The translations under genes were made by a program, and so were the position numbers. The notes under the pieces are model-generated. The model saw nothing but the letters and a program-made list of their open reading frames with translations. It did not search any database and was not told the DNA's origin. 64,000 bases of DNA, taken from positions 1,302,001 through 1,366,000 of the forward strand of contig NZ_AP024325.1 of NCBI RefSeq assembly GCF_018408855.1, given 5' to 3'. The stretch is from Caballeronia sp. NK8. GTDB lineage: Bacteria; Pseudomonadota; Gammaproteobacteria; Burkholderiales; Burkholderiaceae. The stretch's first letter is position 1. Every line of letters starts with the position of its first letter. Of this stretch, positions 42,615 through 51,126 are shown one piece after another.

Positions 42615-43889
42615 TCACGCGCACGCAAACGATATGCGATCGGGCGCGTTCGCGCGCTCGGCGCAGATCGCATCGACAATGTACTGCGCGTCGCGCGCGA
42701 CGCCCGAGAAGCGGCCCGATCCCCACGTGTGCAACCACGGCAGACCGACGAAATAGAGCCCCGGCACCGCCGTCACGCCGCGCAAGTGCGCCGGATGGCC
42801 GCGACCATTGAAGACCGGCGCGTCGAGCCAGCCGAAATCCGGCGTGAAGCCGATGCACCAAACCACTGCCCCGATCCCGCTCGCCTCGAGACTCAGTTCG
42901 ACGCGTTCGCCATCCGGCTGCCACAGTGGCTCGTAACGCGCGGCAGCCGGCGCATCGATGCCGTGCTTCGCGATGAATCCGTCGATGCTCGCGTTGATGC
43001 GGTTATAGGTATCGTCGGCGTCGTCGAGGTTCGCGCGCAGGTTCGGCGCAAAACGCAGCTTGCCGTCGCGAAAGTCTTCCAGACGGCCGAACAGTTCCAT
43101 GCCTTCCAGCGCGAAGCGGCGCAAGTCGATATCGCGGCCGCCGTCGCGGCCCGTCACATAATGATTGGTGTTGTCGCGCACGCCTTCGCGCAGCGGATGA
43201 TCGGTCACGGGCATGTCGTAGTAACGCATGTCCGCGAGCCAGTCGACCACATCGCGACCGCGATAGAAACGCGCGCAACGCGGCGCTTCACCCACCGCGA
43301 GATGCACCTTGCGGCCCGCCAGATGCAGATCCTCCGCGATCTGCGCGCCCGACTGCCCCGAACCGACGACGAGCACCGCGCCCGGCGGCAACGCATCCGC
43401 ATTGCGATAATCCGACGACTCCACCTGAGCGATCCGCGCGGGCAAACGTTCGGCCATGCGTGGCACGATCGGCGTGTGATAGCCGCCTGACGCGACCACG
43501 ATCTGATCGGCCGTGAACTCGCCGCGCGAGCTTGCCACGAAGTAACGTCCATCCGCGCCGCGCCTGACGCGCGTGACCGCCGCATCTTCGAGCACGGGCG
43601 CGTGCACCTTCTCGATGAAGCCATCGAGATACGCAATGATCTCGTCCTTCTTCATGAAGCCGTGCGGGTCCGCGCCGGCGTAGGGATGTCCCGGCAGCGC
43701 GCATTGCCAGTTGGGCGTTACGAGGCAGAACGTGTCCCAGCGTTGCGTGCGCCACGTATGCGTGAGCGTGTGCTTTTCGAGCACGAGATGATCGATGTTC
43801 GCCTGCTGCAGAAAGTGGCTGACCGACAGTCCCGCCTGCCCGCCACCCACGACGATCACGCTGTAATGCGTCGATTGAACGTTCGACAT
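42615..43889 (-). CDS. nitH: MSMEG_0569-family flavin-dependent oxidoreductase of the Nit1C cluster
   Basis: A 424-residue FAD/NAD(P) monooxygenase-like protein: FAD motif VIVVGGGQAGLSVSHFL at the N-terminus, the MSMEG_0569-typical WDTFCLVTPNWQCALPGHPY, ASGGYHTPIVPRMAERLP, the second Rossmann motif VLVVGSGQSGAQIAEDLHL near residue 160, RDNTNHYVTGRDGGRDIDLR, and C-terminal GLPWLHTWGSGRFSGVARDA. This subfamily occurs almost only in Nit1C-type clusters. Its substrate is unknown. It is the last gene of the operon, with 29 bases between it and the preceding small gene. Confidence 0.9.
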   Translation of the reverse strand: MSNVQSTHYSVIVVGGGQAGLSVSHFLQQANIDHLVLEKHTLTHTWRTQRWDTFCLVTPNWQCALPGHPYAGADPHGFMKKDEIIAYLDGFIEKVHAPVLEDAAVTRVRRGADGRYFVASSRGEFTADQIVVASGGYHTPIVPRMAERLPARIAQVESSDYRNADALPPGAVLVVGSGQSGAQIAEDLHLAGRKVHLAVGEAPRCARFYRGRDVVDWLADMRYYDMPVTDHPLREGVRDNTNHYVTGRDGGRDIDLRRFALEGMELFGRLEDFRDGKLRFAPNLRANLDDADDTYNRINASIDGFIAKHGIDAPAAARYEPLWQPDGERVELSLEASGIGAVVWCIGFTPDFGWLDAPVFNGRGHPAHLRGVTAVPGLYFVGLPWLHTWGSGRFSGVARDAQYIVDAICAERANAPDRISFACA

Positions 43890-43918
43890 ATCCGCATCCT
43901 CTCCGGCAGATGAATGAA

Positions 43919-44203
43919 TCACTCGAGCGCGAGCACGGTGACGTGCGCGTCGTGCGTTGCGGTGAAGCGGCGCGCATCCTCTTCGATGCGCGCGAGCTGA
44001 TCGAGCGCGGCGGAGCAGGCGAAGCCATACTTTTCGCGCACGCGTTCCGAGCCGATGTTGAGCGCCTCGCGCGAGCGCGCGACGAATTCGCCGACGTCGT
44101 AACGCTCGCCCGCCGTGAAGAACTCGCCGACGACAGTCGATGGCGAATAGCAATTCGCTTCGACGCCATCGGGCCAGCGAATTCGAAAGTGCATGACGGG
44201 CAT
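43919..44203 (-). CDS. nitG: MSMEG_0570-family nitrogen starvation response protein
   Basis: A 94-residue soluble protein. MPVMHFRIRWPDGVEANCYS and PSTVVGEFFTAGERYDVGEF are the family hallmarks, followed by REALNIGSERVREKYGFACS. The domain is found only in Nit1C-type operons and has no assigned chemistry. Start ATG 44203 has AAGGAAACACGACC. It lies 13 bases after the glycosyltransferase stop. Confidence 0.88.
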   Translation of the reverse strand: MPVMHFRIRWPDGVEANCYSPSTVVGEFFTAGERYDVGEFVARSREALNIGSERVREKYGFACSAALDQLARIEEDARRFTATHDAHVTVLALE

Positions 44204-44216
44204 GGTCGTGTTTCCT

Positions 44217-45371
44217 TTATGCGTTGAGCTTGCCGTAGATGTCCAGATGCCGCGCGGCGCTGGCTTGCCACGTAAAGCGCCTGAGCAGCGCGGGCACGGC
44301 ATGAAGGAAGTCGATGCCGCTTGCGCCGTCGAGCGCTTTGGCGAGCGCATCGGCGATCGAATGCGCGTCGTGCGGATCGGCGAAGACGCAGGTCGTCTCG
44401 TCGAGATAGTCGATGAATGGCGCGATTCGCGACACGATCACGGGCCGCTCGCTCGCCAGCGCTTCCAGTACGACGAGCCCGAAGCCTTCGCGCAGTGAGA
44501 TCATCGAGACCGCGCCGGCGAGGCGATAGAGCGCGGGCATCGATGCATCCGATAGCGCGCCGGTGACGATGACCGGCGTGCCCTTCTCGCTCACGTCGAG
44601 CTTGAGTTCGGCGGCGCGCGCGAGGAAGCGGCGCGTATAGGCATCGTGATCGAGCAGGCTCGCGCCACCCGCGAGCACGAGTTGCGCCGACGGCCGTCGC
44701 ATACGCAACGATGCGAACGCTTCGAGCAGCATCGACGTGTTCTTGCGCGCTTCGATGCCGCCGACCGCGAGCAAGGCCGGCCCCGCGCCGATGCCGAAGC
44801 GTTCGCGCAATGCATCGCATTCGTCGTCGAACGCCGCTCCGTAGCGCGTTCGATCGATACCGTTCGTCACCGTCTGCGCCGCGATACCATATGTCGAGCG
44901 CATCGTGCGCGTCCATGCTTCGCTCACGCACAGCACGGCGTCGGCGTCCTGCCATGCACGCCGTTGCCAGTGCGCGAGTTGCACGTCATCGAAGTGATCG
45001 AGATGATGGACGGTACGCACGAAGGCGCGAATCGCGCCCTGCGCCTTGAGCTCCGCGAGCGCATTTCCGCCGATGCTGTCCTGCGCATGCAGCACGTCGT
45101 AGCCGCTCACGTTCGCTTCGATGAGCGCGCGCTTCAATGCGCGGATGCGTTCATCGACCATCGCGACAAGTCCTTCCTGCGCGCCTTCGATACGCGCCAG
45201 CACGATCCTGCAAGGCGACGCGCGAAACATCGCTTCGCCAGCGCGCGCGGGCGCGAACACCGTGACGTCGTGTCCGCACGCGTGCAGTGCGCGTCCGAGT
45301 TCGAGCGTATGCACGACGCCGCCGCGCGGATTCACCGAATGCGTGAGCAGTGCGATCCGCATACGGTTCAT
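44217..45371 (-). CDS. MSMEG_0565-family glycosyltransferase (GT4-like) of the Nit1C cluster
   Basis: A 384-residue GT-B glycosyltransferase: N-terminal MRIALLTHSVNPRGGVVHTL with the glycine loop, GNALAELKAQGAIRAFVRTV, and a C-terminal donor-binding domain with AVGGIEARKNTSMLLEAFAS, SLREGFGLVVLEALASERPV (E-x7-E motif). The donor is probably a nucleotide sugar. The MNRMRIALL start at 45371 overlaps the AIR-synthase stop as ATGA. Its presence shows that the operon makes or modifies a glycosylated small molecule, which is inference. Confidence 0.88.
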   Translation of the reverse strand: MNRMRIALLTHSVNPRGGVVHTLELGRALHACGHDVTVFAPARAGEAMFRASPCRIVLARIEGAQEGLVAMVDERIRALKRALIEANVSGYDVLHAQDSIGGNALAELKAQGAIRAFVRTVHHLDHFDDVQLAHWQRRAWQDADAVLCVSEAWTRTMRSTYGIAAQTVTNGIDRTRYGAAFDDECDALRERFGIGAGPALLAVGGIEARKNTSMLLEAFASLRMRRPSAQLVLAGGASLLDHDAYTRRFLARAAELKLDVSEKGTPVIVTGALSDASMPALYRLAGAVSMISLREGFGLVVLEALASERPVIVSRIAPFIDYLDETTCVFADPHDAHSIADALAKALDGASGIDFLHAVPALLRRFTWQASAARHLDIYGKLNA

Positions 45372-46318
45372 CGCGCACATATGAACGGCTCGTCGCGCAG
45401 ATTCCACAGCAGCGCGCGTTCCGAACCACGTTCGATGACGATCTCGCGCGACGCATCCACTTCGCCGATCACCGCGCATGCAAGCGAACGCGACGCGAAC
45501 CTCGCGCATACTTCATCGATATGTTCACGGCGCACGGACAGCACGAAACCGAAGCTCGGAAACGCCGTGAGCCAGCGTTCGATATCGACATCGGGCGGGC
45601 GCGGCAGTGCATCGAGATCGATGCGCGCGCCCACGTCCGAGCATTCGAGCAGCATCAACGCAGTGCCGAGCGCGCCGGCCATGCTGATGTCCTTGGCGGC
45701 ATCGCACAGACCATCTTCGGCCAGCGCGGGAAGCAGTTCGAAGTCTGCGCGCGCACGGCCTTCCGGCGCGCCCACCGACGCGTTCCAGAACGGATACGGC
45801 TCCTCGAATTTGCCGCGCAGATCGACGGCCATGACGAGCGCGTCGCCGGGACGCGCATCGAAGCTCGTCAGAAGCTTGCGCGCCCGCCCGACGATCGCGA
45901 CCGCGAGTTGCGCACTATCGCTGCGCACGTTGCTGTGTCCGCCGACGATCGGCACGCCGTACGCCGCCGATGCCGCCGCCATGCCCGCGAGCACGTCGCG
46001 CGCGTCTTGCGCATTGCCGCTCCACAACGCATCGACGACGGCGATGGGACGGCCGCCCATCGCGTAGATATCGCTGACGTTGACCATCACGGCGCTATAG
46101 CCCGCAAACCACGGCATCGTGCAAACGAAGTCGCTCACGAGACCTTCGATCGCGAACAGCATGTAGCTGTCGCCATCGGGAATCACGGCGCAATCGTCGC
46201 CAATCGCGACGCTCTGCGCGCCTTGCGGCAAGCGTGAAAGCACCTGCGAGATATCGCGCTTGTGACGAAAGCCGCGGCTCTCGCGCAAACGCTCGACCAG
46301 TTCGGCGAGCGCGCTCAC
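45368..46318 (-). CDS. nitF: AIR synthase (PurM)-like protein, sll0787 family, of the Nit1C cluster
   Basis: A 316-residue PurM/ThiL/SelD-fold protein: the N-terminal ATP and Mg region SVAIGDDCAVIPDGDSYMLF, MVNVSDIYAMGGRPIAVVDA, PIVGGHSNVRSDSAQLAVAI, and C-terminal DGLCDAAKDISMAGALGTAL. Conserved Asp residues in IGDDCA and DIYAMGG fit ATP-dependent activation of an amide or acid. Start is GTG at 46318, sharing GTGA with the stop of the GNAT gene and preceded by GCGGAGGATGTC. The substrate is unknown. Confidence 0.9.
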   Translation of the reverse strand: MSALAELVERLRESRGFRHKRDISQVLSRLPQGAQSVAIGDDCAVIPDGDSYMLFAIEGLVSDFVCTMPWFAGYSAVMVNVSDIYAMGGRPIAVVDALWSGNAQDARDVLAGMAAASAAYGVPIVGGHSNVRSDSAQLAVAIVGRARKLLTSFDARPGDALVMAVDLRGKFEEPYPFWNASVGAPEGRARADFELLPALAEDGLCDAAKDISMAGALGTALMLLECSDVGARIDLDALPRPPDVDIERWLTAFPSFGFVLSVRREHIDEVCARFASRSLACAVIGEVDASREIVIERGSERALLWNLRDEPFICAR

Positions 46319-46875
46319 GACATCCTCCGCGACAGCGCGACGAAACCGCTTTGCGGCGTGACACAAGGTGGATAGGCGTCGAGCTGCGCGCGCATCAGAT
46401 GATGCGGCCGGCCGAACAGCGTTTCCTCGCCAAGCGATGTCCAGTTCAAACGCTGGAAAAGCGGCACGTTCTGCGCCTGAACGTGCGCGAGGAACGTCTC
46501 GCAACCTTGCGCATGCGCGCTCGACACCGCAAGCCGGATAAGCGTCGCGCCGATCTTCGCATGCGAGCGAAACGCCGCATGCACCGCGAGCCGCGAGCCG
46601 AACCACACGCCCGGTTCGTTCTCGTGGATACGCACCGTGCCGACGACCTGCTCGGGCATGCCCGCGACGCAACTCAAGGCGACGAGCAGTTGCGCGTGCG
46701 CGTCGATCTCGTCGCGATCGTCGCCGGCGAACACGCCCTGCTCGATGCAGAACACCGCGCGCCGCAGCTTGTACGCCTCGATCGCTTCCCACGGCAGCGT
46801 CGCCCATTTCACGCGATATTCGACCGGCGTGTAATCGAGCGCGAGCGCATCGCCTTCAATGGCATCGACGAACAT
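46315..46875 (-). CDS. nitE: MSMEG_0567-family GNAT acetyltransferase of the Nit1C cluster
   Basis: A 186-residue GNAT-fold protein: VKWATLPWEAIEAYKLRRAV, FCIEQGVFAGDDRDEIDAHA, VVGTVRIHENEPGVWFGSRL (the acetyl-CoA strand), AVHAAFRSHAKIGATLIRLA (the P-loop-like R-x-x-x-x-G/A region) and TLFGRPHHLM. The ATG at 46875 has GAGGTGTGAAC upstream; a GTG at 46881 would share GTGA with the radical SAM stop. The acceptor is unknown. Confidence 0.87.
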   Translation of the reverse strand: MFVDAIEGDALALDYTPVEYRVKWATLPWEAIEAYKLRRAVFCIEQGVFAGDDRDEIDAHAQLLVALSCVAGMPEQVVGTVRIHENEPGVWFGSRLAVHAAFRSHAKIGATLIRLAVSSAHAQGCETFLAHVQAQNVPLFQRLNWTSLGEETLFGRPHHLMRAQLDAYPPCVTPQSGFVALSRRMS

Positions 46876-46877
46876 GT

Positions 46878-47990
46878 TCACACCTCGTACGAAGAAAGCG
46901 ACGAGCACGCGCCGCATTTGCCGCAGCCCGCCTTGATATCGGCGGAACGCATGCCGGCATCGGCCAGCATCGCACCGATGGGCGCGAGCACCGTGCGCAT
47001 GAAGTCCGGTGTGGGCGCGGGATGATCTTCGAGCGGCGTGCCGCTGATCGGCACGAAGGGCACGACGAACGGATACACCCCGATGGCGATGCATTCGCGC
47101 GCGATCTGCACGATGGCCGCCGCGCTGTCGCCCAGACCCGCGAGGATGTACGTGCTCACCTGCCCGCGCCCGAACACTTTCACCGCCGCTTCGAACGCTT
47201 CCATGTAGCGCGCGACGGGCACCGTCGCCTTGCCCGGCATGATGCGGTCACGCACGGCGGGCGTGACGGCTTCGAGATGCATGCCGAGCGTATCGATGCC
47301 GCTCGCCTTCATGCGCTCGAACCAGCGATCGTCGTCGGGCGGCTCGCATTGCGCCTGGATCGGCAGATTCACGGCGGCCTTGATGGCGAAGGCGCTGTCG
47401 CAGAGGATCTGCGCGCCGCGATCGGGCGTGGGCGGCGTGCCGGTCGTGAGGACCATGTGCTTCACGCCATCGAGCAACACGGCCATGCGCGCCACTTCCG
47501 CAAGCTGCTCGGGCGTCTTGCGCGCGATCGTGCGCCCCGCCGCGAGCGATTGACCGATCGCGCAGAACTTGCACGACTTGCGGCGGCTTTCGTAGCGGAT
47601 GCAGGTTTGCAGGACCGTCGTCGCGAGTACGTCCGCGCCGTGCAGCGTCGCGATGTGCGAGTACGGCACGCCGTCGAGTGTCTGCATCGAGTAGAAGCGC
47701 GGCGCCTTCGGAAAGCTGATGTTGGCGATCGGAATGGCGTCGCGCATGAGCGCGCTGTTGCCGTTCGCATCAGGTTGCCCGGCGACGAACGGCGAATCCC
47801 AGGCCGTGTTCGTGTGAACGGGCACCATGATCGTCACCCCATCGACGGTGACCGCCTTGTGATCCGACGGCCCCGCGCCGCCGCGCCGGCTCGACACACC
47901 CGCGCGCGGATCGACGAGGCGCAGGCCAGTCGACTGAAGCTCAGTCATCAATTGCCGGCTCGACGCCGGCAGGTTCTCTCTCGCGCTCAT
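46878..47990 (-). CDS. nitD: MSMEG_0568-family radical SAM protein of the Nit1C cluster
   Basis: A 370-residue radical SAM enzyme with an atypical cluster motif: Cys130-x9-Cys140-x2-Cys143 ([14 protein letters not shown]) instead of Cys-x3-Cys-x2-Cys. The SAM-binding block is [20 protein letters not shown], followed by the barrel strands [20 protein letters not shown] and [22 protein letters not shown]-terminal Cys cluster ([10 protein letters not shown]) may bind a second FeS cluster. The MSARENL start at 47990 overlaps the nitrilase by 50 bases; ATG 47948 is an alternative. The reaction is unknown. Confidence 0.88.
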
Positions 47991-48948
47991 CGTCGTGGGT
48001 GTCCTTGAAAGAAGTGACGGGCGATGCGGGCCGGTCGTTGATTGCAAGACTCAGCAACTCGGGACGCGCGTAGTGGCCAACCGAATCCATCATGCGTTTG
48101 CGCTTCGTGATGAGCGACATGTCCAGATCCGCGATCACCATGCCCTCGCCCTCGCGCAACGGCTCGGCGAGATGCTGGCCTTCCGGCGACACGATCGCGG
48201 TGTTGCAGCCGCCGCGCAACGCGCGCTGAAGATTCGGATCGGGCGTGATGGCTTCGATCTGCGCATCGGTGAGCCATCCCGTCGCGTTGACGACGAAGCA
48301 GCCCGACTCCAGCGCGTGATGGCGGATCGTCACCTCGATCTGCTCCGCGAAGATCGGCCCGACCAGCGAACCGGGAAACTGGCTGCAATGAATCTCTTCG
48401 TGCTGCGTCATCAGCGCATAGCGCGCGAGCGGGTTGTAGTGCTCCCAGCAAGCGAGCGCGCCCACACGTCCGACGCCGGTCTCGACGACCTTCAGACCGG
48501 CCGCATCGCCTTGGCCCCAGATCATGCGTTCATGAAACGTCGGCGTGATCTTGCGGCGCTTGAGCAGCAGCTTGCCGTCCGTATCGAAGATGAGTTGCGT
48601 GTTGTAGAGGCTGCCGTGATCGCGCTCGTTCACGCCGAGCACGACGACCATGTTCGCGAGCCGCGCACGTTGCGCGACCGCCTGCGTGACCGGACCCGGC
48701 ACGACCACCGCCTGCTCGTAGAGCTTCATGTGATCCGCGCCCGATGCGACCGGCGCGCGCACGAACGAGAAGTACGGGTAATACGGCACGAAGGTTTCGG
48801 GGAACACGATCAGTTGCACGCCTTGCGCCGCGGCTTCATCGATGGCCGTGCACACTCGGTCTAGCGTGCCGCCCGGCTGCTCGAAGTCCGGCGCGATCTG
48901 CACGGCGGCCGCGCGGACGATGCGTTTGGTCGAGGGCGTCGCGGCCAT
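47941..48948 (-). CDS. nitC: Nitrilase, Nit1/Nit6803 family, of the Nit1C cluster
   Basis: A 335-residue nitrilase-superfamily enzyme hydrolysing a nitrile to acid and ammonia. The catalytic triad is Glu51 ([14 protein letters not shown]), Lys133 ([11 protein letters not shown]) and Cys167 ([17 protein letters not shown]), typical of true nitrilases of the Nit6803 branch. ATG 48948 lies five bases after the stop of the previous gene; a GTG at 48957 would share GTGA. In Pseudomonas, this branch is required for using cyanide as a nitrogen source, so a similar role here is a fair prediction but untested. Confidence 0.92.
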
Positions 48949-48953
48949 GATCG

Positions 48954-49436
48954 TCACACGGTCCACGTGTGGATGATGAGCGCGTTCTCCTTGCGATGAA
49001 GCAACTGGAGATCGAGCACGTCGAGCGGGTTGATCGGCCGGATGCCTTCGATCAGCGACGCTTCGCCGTGTCCGTACAGCGCCTGCAACGCGAAGCGGCA
49101 CGCGTAGACCTTGCCGCCTTCCGCCATGAACTTCTGCAGTTGCTTGTTGAAGTTGAGATGGCCGGGAAAGGCTTCATCGCCGAGGGTCGGAAAACCGCGT
49201 TGCAGACCGAGCGTGACGCCGGGACCATAGAGCAGCACCGATGTGTCGAAGCCCTTGCGTTGCAGGCGCGTCGCCTGCAGCAGATTCACGAAGCCGATCG
49301 AGCCTTCGAACGCGACCGTATGAAACGTGACGAGCGCTTTTTCGCCGGGCTCGGCCTTCACGTCCTCGAAGACTTTTTCTTCGTAGTCGACCAGATAATC
49401 GCCGTTCTTGTGAAGCGGTTGACTGACTGCGGGCAT
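48954..49436 (-). CDS. nitB: MSMEG_0572/Sll0783-family nitrogen starvation response protein
   Basis: A 160-residue cytoplasmic protein, first gene of the operon: [80 protein letters not shown] and [20 protein letters not shown]. The pattern suggests a DsrE-like alpha/beta fold. The family name comes from its nitrogen-stress response in mycobacteria and cyanobacteria. Start ATG 49436 has CGGAGAATGCC. A sigma-54 type promoter sits about 40 bases upstream. The function is unknown. Confidence 0.88.
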
Positions 49437-49476
49437 GGCATTCTCCGTGGTTGTCGAGTGATGGCAAGCGCTCAAA

Positions 49477-49492
49477 CGCAACGGATATGCCA
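49477..49492 (-). promoter_or_regulatory. Predicted sigma-54 (RpoN) promoter of the Nit1C operon
   Basis: On the minus strand the sequence reads TGGCATATCCGTTGCG. It matches the -24/-12 consensus (TGGCAC-N5-TTGCA): TGGCA and TTGC are exact, and the GG and GC dinucleotides are separated by the required ten bases. The -12 GC is at 49479-49478, so transcription should start near 49466 and give a 30-base leader with a Shine-Dalgarno. Nitrogen-limitation control through NtrC is inferred; a clear NtrC site was not found. Confidence 0.7.
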
Positions 49493-49651
49493 ATGATTGG
49501 CCCGCGAAATGCAATCACTTTGCGATCAAGCAAAACGAATTTGCGCGAGCGCCGCGAAAATTTTCTGGCTGCGGCTTGTGGGACGGGCTTTCGCCGCATC
49601 GCGCAGAAGCGCTGCGCGAAAGGGACACGCACGCTTTCAGCGCAAAGGCGC

Positions 49652-49673
49652 GTGTGCATGGTGCGCGGCACAC
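49652..49673. promoter_or_regulatory. Inverted repeat in the nit/mocR spacer
   Basis: GTGTGC-N10-GCACAC lies 62 bases before the MocR-type gene and about 160 bases upstream of the sigma-54 promoter. This is a suitable position for an enhancer-binding activator (NtrC-like sites contain GCAC half-sites) or for autoregulation by the MocR protein. The remainder of the 298-bp spacer 49437-49734 shows nothing recognisable apart from the sigma-54 promoter candidate at 49477-49492. Confidence 0.35.
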
Positions 49674-49734
49674 CGAAGCCGTGCATCGATGCGATCAATG
49701 CAATCAGGTGCGATTTCCACGGGGATCTCGGACG

Positions 49735-51126
49735 ATGAATCAGCCGGCGCATCACTGGATCAGAAAACTCGAAGAGAGCCGAAAACCCGCGTATCTGACG
49801 ATTCCCGATCTGATCGAGGAAGACCTCGCGAGCGGACGATTGCGGCCGCGCGATCGCCTGCCGGGACTGCGCGATCTCGCGGATCTGCTGAGCCTGAACT
49901 ACACGACGATCGCGCGCGCCTATGCGGAAGCGCGCAAGCGCGGCCTGCTCGATGCGCGCGCGGGCAGCGGCACCTTCGTGCGTGGCAGGACGCAGACGTT
50001 GCCGCTGGCGGGCGGAAGCAGCGTCGAGATGTCGATGAACATGCCGCCCGAGCCGCCCGCGCTCGCGGCGCGCTTGCGTGAATCGGCGGCTTCGCTCATG
50101 CGCGGCGCGGACCCCTATCAGTTGCTCCGCTATCAGGATTTCGGCGGCACGGCGGCGGATCGCGCGGCGGGAAGCGAGTGGCTTCGCGCGCGCGTGCCGG
50201 ATTGCGATGTCGATACCGTGCTCGTGTGCCCGGGCATTCACGGCGCGCTCGTGGCGCTGGTGTCGCAGCTTGCGCGGCCCGGCGAGATGATCTGCCTCGA
50301 CTCGCTCGCCTATCCCGGCATCAAGGCGATCGCGTCGCAACTGGGCGTGCGGTTGCAGGCGCTGCCGCGCGACGAGGACGGCCCTTTGCCGCATGCGTTC
50401 GAGGCGTTGTGCAAGTCGGAGAAGCCGGGCGGGTTCTATTGCAATCCGACATTGCAGAATCCGAGCACGCTGACCTTGACGCGCCAGCGCCGCGAAGCGC
50501 TCGCCGATGTGGCGTTGCGCTATAACGTGCCGATCATCGAGGACGAGCCTTACGGGATGTTGCCGCCCGACGCGCCGCCGGCGATGGCCGCGCTTGCGCC
50601 CGAGCTGACTTATCACGTCACCGGGTTATCGAAGACGCTCGGTGCGGGCTTGCGGATCGGCTATCTGAAGGCGCCGACGCCGCGGCAGACGCAGCGCATC
50701 GCGGGTGCATTGCGGGCGACGACGGTCATGCCTAGCCCGTTCACCGTGCTGCTCGCGACGCGCTGGATCGATGACGGCACCGCCGCCGATGTGCTCGTCG
50801 CGATTCGCAATGAAGCTTCGGCGAGACAGGCGATCGCGGCGGACGAGCTTCGCGAGTTTGCCTTCGATGCCGATCCGAATGGATTTCATCTGTGGCTTCC
50901 GGTGCCGCCGATGTGCGACTGGAGTGCTTCAGAACTCGCGTTGCAGTTGCGCAATCAAGGCATCGGGGCAGTGGCCGGGGCTGCGTTTTCCACGGATGGC
51001 AATCCGCCGAATGCGTTGCGTCTGTGTCTTGGCGGGCCGCAGGGGCGGGAGGATTGCCGGGAAGCCGTGCGGCGAGTGGCGGATATGCTCGCGGATCCGC
51101 ATCATTTGCATATGCCGATGTTTTGA
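49735..51126 (+). CDS. MocR/PdxR-type regulator: GntR winged helix plus aminotransferase domain
   Basis: A 463-residue protein. Residues 1-85 form a GntR winged helix (LIEEDLASGRLRPRDRLPGL, RDLADLLSLNYTTIARAYAE, GLLDARAGSGTFVRG). The remainder is a fold-type I aminotransferase domain with PGIHGALVALVSQL, GFYCNPTLQNPSTL, IIEDEPYGML (Asp that binds the pyridine N) and the PLP Lys in TGLSKTLGAGLRIGYL. The domain senses PLP-bound amino compounds. ATG 49735 was chosen; a frame from 49576 is mostly noise. It is divergent from the Nit1C operon. Confidence 0.9.
   Translation: MNQPAHHWIRKLEESRKPAYLTIPDLIEEDLASGRLRPRDRLPGLRDLADLLSLNYTTIARAYAEARKRGLLDARAGSGTFVRGRTQTLPLAGGSSVEMSMNMPPEPPALAARLRESAASLMRGADPYQLLRYQDFGGTAADRAAGSEWLRARVPDCDVDTVLVCPGIHGALVALVSQLARPGEMICLDSLAYPGIKAIASQLGVRLQALPRDEDGPLPHAFEALCKSEKPGGFYCNPTLQNPSTLTLTRQRREALADVALRYNVPIIEDEPYGMLPPDAPPAMAALAPELTYHVTGLSKTLGAGLRIGYLKAPTPRQTQRIAGALRATTVMPSPFTVLLATRWIDDGTAADVLVAIRNEASARQAIAADELREFAFDADPNGFHLWLPVPPMCDWSASELALQLRNQGIGAVAGAAFSTDGNPPNALRLCLGGPQGREDCREAVRRVADMLADPHHLHMPMF

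Follow-up and report, generated by a model that had tools for sequence, protein, structure and literature searches.

A Nit1C operon of Caballeronia sp. NK8 with a predicted sigma-54 promoter and a divergent MocR-type regulator gene

A complete Nit1C operon and its distribution

We analyzed a 64,000-nucleotide (nt) window of the Caballeronia sp. NK8 genome (contig NZ_AP024325.1, positions 1,302,001 to 1,366,000), which carries a complete betaproteobacterial Nit1C operon at window positions 42615 to 49436 on the minus strand. The eight genes are intact and adjacent on one strand, and all eight products scored above their own NCBIfam cut-offs in a profile search, confirming the eight-gene Nit1C-type operon called in a first-pass annotation. 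The operon itself is of a known kind. The unit extends beyond 49492, the limit of the region described in that annotation, to a divergent MocR-type gene ending at 51126, which had been overlooked. We propose, with modest confidence, that the operon is expressed from a sigma-54 promoter, is gated by a pyridoxal 5'-phosphate (PLP)-dependent sensor encoded by the divergent gene, and specifies a pathway to a small metabolite.

The first gene, nitB (48954-49436), encodes a 160-residue protein of the MSMEG_0572/Sll0783 family (TIGR04044, 288 bits against a cut-off of 110; E = 1.4e-86). It is followed by nitC (47941-48948), encoding a 335-residue Nit6803-family nitrilase (TIGR04048, 584.6 against 502.6 bits), and nitD (46878-47990, with possible starts at 47990, 47951, or 47948), encoding a radical S-adenosylmethionine (SAM) enzyme of the MSMEG_0568 family (TIGR04043, 599 against 304 bits). 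Next are nitE (46315-46881; GTG start or internal ATG), for an MSMEG_0567 GNAT acyltransferase (TIGR04045, 242 against 68 bits; 2e-72), and nitF (45368-46318; GTG start), for a 316-residue sll0787 AIR-synthase/PurM-like protein (TIGR04049, 478 against 321 bits). The last three are an optional member encoding a GT4-type glycosyltransferase (GT) of the MSMEG_0565 family (44217-45371; TIGR04047, 506 against 260 bits), nitG (43919-44203), encoding a 94-residue MSMEG_0570 family protein (TIGR04042, 131 against 80 bits), and nitH (42615-43889), encoding a 424-residue MSMEG_0569 flavin-dependent oxidoreductase (TIGR04046, 689 against 498 bits). With the preferred starts, nitB and nitC are separated by 5 nt, nitC and nitD overlap by 11 nt (50 nt with the upstream ATG at 47990 as the nitD start), and 4-nt overlaps occur at nitD-nitE, nitE-nitF, and nitF-GT; gaps of 13 and 29 nt follow at GT-nitG and nitG-nitH.

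The seven families that define Nit1C (NitB, nitrilase, radical SAM, GNAT, AIR-synthase-like, NitG, and flavoprotein) are thus adjacent here, and the GT lies between ORF5 and ORF6. Nit1C clusters with a GT, in Burkholderia fungorum and Rubrivivax, are the betaproteobacterial form in the accessible part of Podar 2005 (PMC1199592).

For comparison we used 80 Burkholderiaceae loci (the best 80 of 262 relatives), 22 distant loci belonging to other families in the phylum (L156 and L162 being near-copies), and seven named plasmid loci out of 514 matches. All 22 distant loci contain the core seven families, as do those Burkholderiaceae loci that are of sufficient length (L036, L041, and L068 end at contig edges, and the matches in L078 are partial). 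Judged by its radical SAM gene, Nit1C occurs in 16 of 398 genomes of the phylum. The window genome comprises 9.2 Mb in 7 contigs; its closest loci are from Caballeronia, and its sister row in the tree is C. pedi. Relatives of NitB were found on 514 of 72,556 PLSDB plasmids, 374 of which are from Klebsiella.

The same genome encodes a second nitrilase (G000:C3:731821-732729) that scores 480 bits on the Nit6803 model, just under the 502.6-bit cut-off. No other Nit1C gene was found in the surrounding 19 kb. This nitrilase may belong to the group that, in the available text of Podar 2005, lost the cluster.

A predicted sigma-54 promoter upstream of nitB

Sigma-54 promoters carry TGGC and TGC blocks with a GG-N10-GC spacing. 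The -24/-12 candidate TGGCATATCCGTTGCG (49477-49492, minus strand) sits 56 nt before the nitB ATG (49436) and has 9 of the 12 consensus letters; other loci have up to 12, as in the non-pathogenic laboratory strain Paraburkholderia xenovorans LB400, which has the cluster with a 12/12 promoter match. By the usual spacing rule, transcription would presumably start at about 49466. The first-pass annotation had proposed a promoter at this site, and the letters at 49492-49477 are as it gave them.

To evaluate this candidate, we searched 80 intergenic regions (the window and 79 loci; L051 was dropped because only 506 nt lie between nitB and the end of its contig). The strict pattern TGGCAYRN4TTGC was present before nitB in 77 of the 80, against a mean of 0.15 and a maximum of 1 in 20 dinucleotide shuffles. 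The three misses (L061, L063, and L071) each have a near match, as does L051, where the strict pattern failed (TGGCATAGCCCGTGCT). Many of the 77 regions are closely related and hence not independent, so the 22 distant loci are the better test: 13 match the strict and 19 a relaxed pattern, at 63 to 133 nt. The relaxed pattern missed L142, L153, and L159, and TGGCACAGCCTTCGCT was seen by eye in L153. Among the plasmid loci, L164 and L170 match the strict pattern, L165 and L167 have one mismatch in the -12 block, and three, including that of an actinobacterium, have no site.

Across the 9.2-Mb genome there are 23 occurrences of the strict form, compared with 8 for a reversed-pattern control, and rpoN is above cut-off in the same genome. 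We also considered whether loss of rpoN accounts for the absent sites in L142 and L159; this was ruled out by the presence of rpoN in both genomes. With a footprint of this depth, the promoter can be raised from a guess to a strong prediction, in which our confidence is high.

A divergent MocR-type gene with predicted operators

The divergent gene (49735-51126, plus strand) encodes a 463-residue protein with a GntR-type winged helix and an aminotransferase-like domain with a predicted PLP lysine, Lys300. NCBIfam models of MocR-type regulators cover its length, solved regulators match its N-terminal part, and solved aminotransferases match its C-terminal part. The best NCBIfam match is EhuR (NF052286; 2.6e-112, 375.7 bits), below the 480-bit cut-off. 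Among 100 orthologues, Lys300, Asn237, Asp270, Arg307, and Arg429 are all near-invariant, and an SKTLG motif aligns with MppQ. We take the roles of the conserved residues to be those familiar from aminotransferases, with Arg429 presumably holding a carboxylate.

The pairing of this gene with nitB is widespread. Of the 80 Burkholderiaceae loci, 79 have it next to nitB in divergent orientation; the exception is L051, whose contig ends early. The same pairing is present in 21 of 22 distant loci (about 2 kb off in L157), the exception being L153. Five of the seven plasmid loci have it, with the Acetobacter copy on the operon strand. The four flanking window genes tested were each found in at most 6 Burkholderiaceae loci; because these neighbors seldom recur, the MocR-nitB pairing goes beyond mere synteny. 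Distances between MocR sequences also track NitD distances across the tree rows. Separately, a catalase gene lies about 1.8 kb past the MocR gene in the Nit1C cluster of an Aquabacterium plasmid (L165:2974-5427).

We identified two predicted MocR operators, both read on the minus strand: a promoter-proximal direct repeat, TGATCGCA-AAG-TGATTGCA (49510-49528), and a second, TGATTGCA-T-TGATCGCA (49689-49706), just upstream of the MocR start. Direct repeats of the form TGATYG-N2-6-TGATYG are present in 79 of the 80 regions against 0.3 in shuffles. In 75 of the 77 strict-promoter regions a repeat lies within 40 nt before the promoter; it ends exactly 19 nt before TGGCA in 72 of these, and at 18, 18, and 11 nt in the remaining three. 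In 51 of the 77 there is also a further repeat over 100 nt upstream, and the position of the second repeat in the window suggests that MocR may regulate its own gene. By eye, several of the distant loci have a related ATTGAATGCAT-like form instead of the repeat. Helped by the fixed 19-nt spacing, these observations make it likely that MocR regulates the operon.

A fixed distance of this kind would also be expected if the -24/-12-like block were not a promoter but part of a joint MocR binding region, with MocR and a sigma-70 promoter driving the operon; EnuR, according to the available text of PMC8739950, works on a sigma-70-type promoter. In an aligned set, conservation is confined to the TGGC and TGC blocks while the letters between them vary, and the distance to the nitB ATG ranges from 56 to 118 nt. 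Moreover, MocR-less L153 and the Acinetobacter plasmid L167 have a NitA-type sigma-54 activator (56% identical) instead and still retain a near-consensus site. We therefore consider a MocR-only role for the block very improbable. Since NitA replaces MocR at these two loci, it looks as if, in Pseudomonadota, the sigma-54 site is the constant part of the circuit and the sensor the exchangeable part. Rhodococcus L169 has neither MocR nor a NitA-type activator.

In the open-licence literature searched, as far as its text was accessible, we found no described example of a PLP-dependent sensor at a fixed distance before a sigma-54 promoter; one paper weighs RpoN for a MocR promoter and finds no clear element. 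The same literature yielded one paper combining MocR with a nitrilase, where mocR accompanies the cio region rather than nit1C, and the main text of a MocR regulon paper (PMC5320631), in its accessible part, contains neither "nitril-" nor "cyanide."

Possible nitrogen control

The obvious candidate for opening a sigma-54 promoter under nitrogen limitation is NtrC, whose enhancer core is GCAC-N7-GTGC. The window has a weak NtrC-like site, TGCACGGCTTCGGTGTG (49669-49685, minus strand), reading GCAC-N7-GTGT with one core mismatch. The exact core is present in 21 of the 80 regions, against 0.85 in shuffles. When the scan was loosened (simple shuffles, spacers from 3 to 7), at least 11 of 14 letters matched in 36 of 80 regions compared with 18 of 240 shuffles; the best window site matched 9 of 14, the commonest value in shuffles. 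We therefore rejected the NtrC site as a firm element: the core is in only 21 of 80 regions, and the window is at shuffle level. NtrC itself is above cut-off in the genome. Nitrogen starvation may be the signal, as suggested by the sigma-54 site, this chance-level NtrC-like site, and published data from other phyla.

Features of the Nit proteins

NitD has a CX9CX2C motif at Cys130, Cys140, and Cys143, plus conserved Cys215, Cys356, Cys359, and Cys362. All seven cysteines are kept in Rhodococcus, where the first spacing is one residue shorter; Cys197 and Cys300 are not kept there. A structural search with the AlphaFold2 (AF2) model (predicted local distance difference test [pLDDT] score, 90.9) gave lipoyl synthases as the closest folds, with 14 to 16% identity in ranks 1 to 10. 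Fourteen further loci (L097 to L110), mostly from one family of the phylum, f39, have 726- to 939-residue frames with a NitD-model domain of 103 to 122 bits, below cut-off.

The catalytic Glu, Lys, and Cys of NitC are present and near-invariant in 103 rows, and the nearest solved chain is the nitrilase 3WUY (1e-147). In NitB, Cys113 is near-invariant in 103 rows including the window, and is kept in Rhodococcus; the protein matches Pfam DsrE at E = 0.0022, below cut-off, and is possibly DsrE-like. NitG has an invariant Cys63 and a nearly invariant Cys18 among 27 aligned sequences, both kept in Rhodococcus; its AF2 model is confident (pLDDT, 94.4), and a search of solved structures with it gave no PDB match. 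The nearest solved chains to NitH are flavin monooxygenases (4USR, 1.5e-20).

NitE exceeds the Pfam gathering score for the N-acyl amino acid synthase FeeM (PF21926; 31.3 against 27 bits, residues 96 to 155) and also passes the general GNAT model Acetyltransf_1 (29.6 against 20.7 bits). NitF matches methanogenesis marker 2 at 2.2e-69 (234 bits, under the 365-bit cut-off), far above the ThiL, SelD, and PurM models. In HypE, a C-terminal cysteine becomes a thiocyanate, and the nearby nitrilase raised the idea that NitF forms a nitrile in the same way; this was rejected, as NitF has no conserved C-terminal cysteine. A SelD-like NitF was likewise rejected, as no invariant or near-invariant column contains cysteine in 17 aligned NitF sequences.

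An optional glycosyltransferase and acyl-CoA enzymes in relatives

We examined GT presence in 100 rows with five shared genes: the gene is present in 59 and absent from 41. Mapped onto a FastTree tree, presence and absence require 17 changes, 15 of them forced by well-supported branches, and L080 retains a GT remnant. This distribution told against the glycosylated product envisaged in the first-pass annotation, since the GT is no core feature, and it indicates that the GT is dispensable. The GT could be a betaproteobacterial insertion; this was rejected because 13 of the 22 distant loci have the gene and its distances follow those of NitD (r = 0.93 in the 59 rows and 0.76 in the 13 distant loci). 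The same two observations make it likelier that the GT is an old member that was repeatedly lost.

Other enzymes recur around the cluster. A Pnap_2097/LnmK-like protein is encoded in 44 of 109 loci and a methylmalonyl-CoA mutase in 38, with both in 36 (counts exclude the window and span the whole locus; families were confirmed on examples). When downstream frames were clustered, the LnmK-like group started a median of 7 nt after nitH and the mutase group a median of 761 nt. LnmK is specific for (2R)-methylmalonyl-CoA, according to a title cited in PMC8666670. The LnmK-like model TIGR04099 exceeded its 125-bit cut-off in 5 of 398 genomes of the phylum and 2 of 200 of the order. All five matches above 250 bits, a line set post hoc, are at Nit1C loci, and two at 131 to 132 bits (G121 and G268, the latter with an internal stop) are in genomes that have no Nit1C radical SAM gene over cut-off. 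In Acetobacter ascendens, nitH is followed by a gene for a propionate-CoA-ligase-like protein that scores under the cut-off of its family. Together, these neighbors point to a putative C3 acyl donor.

We also asked whether the GT and the LnmK-like gene are mutual alternatives. Of the 100 rows, 42 have the GT only, 25 the LnmK-like gene only, 17 both, and 16 neither, but independent pairs were unsupportive (median p = 0.625) and we rejected this idea.

Proposed pathway and competing explanations

Over the twenty years since its discovery, Nit1C has been tied to phenotypes that are unrelated to one another (use of cyanide, resistance to peroxide, and the balance of NADPH or polyhydroxybutyrate [PHB]), and most of its genes lack an assigned chemistry. 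In the mechanism that we propose, a sigma-54 activator would open the promoter under nitrogen limitation. MocR, bound at a fixed position by the polymerase and near its own start, would tune transcription in response to an amino compound that reacts with its PLP. Together, the enzymes would produce a small intracellular metabolite. NitD, lipoyl-synthase-like with four extra cysteines, could carry out a radical step that possibly inserts sulfur and may involve the cysteine of NitB. NitE would transfer an acyl group, probably C3 because propionyl and methylmalonyl enzymes recur as extra neighbors. NitF would activate a carbonyl at the expense of ATP, NitC would hydrolyze a nitrile or amide, NitH would perform an oxidation, and the GT would add an optional decoration. 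Growth on cyanide would then follow from NitC also acting on cyanohydrins.

The first-pass annotation had read the extra genes as a biosynthetic pathway. That part holds up in the acyl-CoA enzymes near relatives' loci, which make biosynthesis likelier, and in the Gene Ontology (GO) term "biosynthetic process" that public annotation places on the nitrilase, radical SAM, AIR-like, and GT members; glycosylation as a core step does not. The biosynthetic direction is therefore already in public annotation. The closeness of the NitD model to lipoyl synthases and the absence of the Nit6803 nitrilase from a Rhodococcus cluster also lean toward it.

Cyanide or nitrile assimilation could instead be the true function. 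Cyanohydrins would form chemically with keto acids or aldehydes, NitC would free ammonia, and the other enzymes would produce or regenerate the acceptor, or else repair damage. Consistent with this, nit1C and NitC are reported as essential for cyanide growth in Pseudomonas and NitB through NitH are all induced by cyanide residue, in the available portions of PMC11049912 and PMC5333837, and NitC has the letters and closest structure of a nitrilase. Such a function gives no obvious role to the radical SAM, acyl transfer, GT, LnmK-like, and mutase genes, and the recurrent loss of the GT also counts against it. The phenotypes published for M. smegmatis (PMC6039565) and Synechocystis, as far as those texts were available, differ: peroxide resistance and NADPH or PHB balance.

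The Rhodococcus cluster (L169:8899-16385) also counts against cyanide assimilation as the true function. It has no Nit6803 nitrilase and keeps the other families, with the GNAT and AIR-like parts fused in one 482-residue protein and two distant CN hydrolases in place of the nitrilase. The first best matches N-carbamoylputrescine amidase, far under cut-off, and by eye keeps Glu, Lys, and Cys; the second best matches an archaeal nitrilase, also far under cut-off, and by eye has Asp at the Glu and Cys places. The idea that an amidase-type enzyme replaced the nitrilase is weakened by the Glu-Lys-Cys set of the first and by matches so far under cut-off. Re-examining these hydrolases made us very slightly more inclined to cyanide assimilation, which we regard as possible but the less probable explanation; on the whole, we roughly favor biosynthesis over pure cyanide use.

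A further possibility is that the operon is catabolic and scavenges nitrogen from one amino-nitrile or amide, with MocR sensing the substrate, as in ectoine, gamma-aminobutyrate (GABA), and taurine operons, sigma-54 adding nitrogen control, and NitC freeing ammonia. The combination of MocR and nitrogen control suits an operon for using a nitrogen source, the closest MocR family is EhuR of ectoine use, and EnuR senses a catabolic intermediate in the accessible text of PMC8739950. However, transporter genes were found singly beside the named plasmid clusters (L165 has one MFS and one DMT gene, and L170 has one for an ABC binding protein), and visual inspection of the six families that recur in at least 6 loci downstream of nitH, a clustering limited to downstream frames, revealed none. 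As the GT and acyl-CoA enzymes also suit synthesis better than catabolism, we find this explanation quite improbable.

Several observations weigh against the biosynthetic, MocR-gated pathway that we favor. Lipoyl synthases have a CX3CX2C radical SAM motif; NitD does not have this spacing, and searches of solved sequences with NitD weakly match HydE, RlmN, and biotin synthase, not lipoyl synthase. The link between NitB and DsrE is weak, as 3MC3 reached E = 0.81 and scored lower than an antibody chain, and the closest solved chains to NitE are ordinary acetyltransferases. On the regulatory side, L142 and L159 have MocR, and rpoN in the genome, with no sigma-54 site, the same holds for MocR and the site in Novosphingobium L166 and Acetobacter L168, and the NtrC core is missing from 59 of the 80 regions, that of the window included. 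No LnmK-like, mutase, or propionate-CoA-ligase-like gene lies beside the window operon. The window genome has no TIGR04099 match; the control genomes of that search also had none, and the model was effective in other genome scans. One Rhodococcus hydrolase keeps Glu-Lys-Cys, so nitrile hydrolysis may occur there, and the cluster of Pseudomonas, reported as essential for cyanide assimilation in the available text of PMC11049912, carries the opposite emphasis.

A more specific version of the biosynthetic pathway is speculative, and we think it unlikely to be right in all its parts. Here Nit1C would be a nitrogen-starvation pathway to an amino-acid derivative that is N-acylated (probably propionylated) and sulfur-modified and has a redox or protective role inside the cell. 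NitD would insert sulfur with the help of an auxiliary [4Fe-4S] cluster like that of lipoyl synthases and NitB would be the carrier, PLP-MocR would read the amino-acid precursor or product beside the sigma-54 polymerase, and cyanide use would be a by-product. If true, this would join the peroxide and NADPH phenotypes of Mycobacterium and Synechocystis with the cyanide phenotype of Pseudomonas. More generally, the footprints define a testable circuit with a predicted PLP-dependent sensor site exactly 19 nt before a sigma-54 promoter, and together with the genomic context they suggest an amino compound as effector, a propionyl or methylmalonyl acyl donor, and a lipoyl-synthase-like radical step.

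Comparison with known systems

The operon has the same seven families, in the same order, as the Nit1C clusters of Burkholderia fungorum and Rubrivivax, with the GT between the AIR-synthase-like and NitG genes, as far as the accessible text of PMC1199592 goes. Our analysis adds to these the sigma-54 site and the MocR partner with its predicted operators. The seven structural families are also shared with nitABCDEFGH of Pseudomonas pseudoalcaligenes/oleovorans CECT 5344, where, in the available text of PMC11049912, NitA implies sigma-54 control. There, the divergent gene encodes NitA, a sigma-54-dependent activator of the Fis family, whereas a MocR-type gene takes its place here, and the gene list given in that text names no GT, which the window has. 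The gpr cluster MSMEG_0565-0572 of Mycobacterium smegmatis contains the members that gave the families their names and is induced by nitrogen starvation, but it is under GlnR control, unlike the operon in the window, according to the accessible text of PMC6039565.

Two comparisons concern single proteins. NitD shares with lipoyl synthase, its closest fold, the radical SAM domain and further conserved cysteines, but it differs in its CX9CX2C spacing and in having additional cysteines, one at residue 215 and others at the C terminus. The MocR-type regulator shares the GntR winged helix, aminotransferase-like domain, and PLP lysine with EhuR/EnuR of ectoine use. It differs from them in its target genes, in falling under the EhuR cut-off, and in having a predicted operator beside a sigma-54-type promoter.

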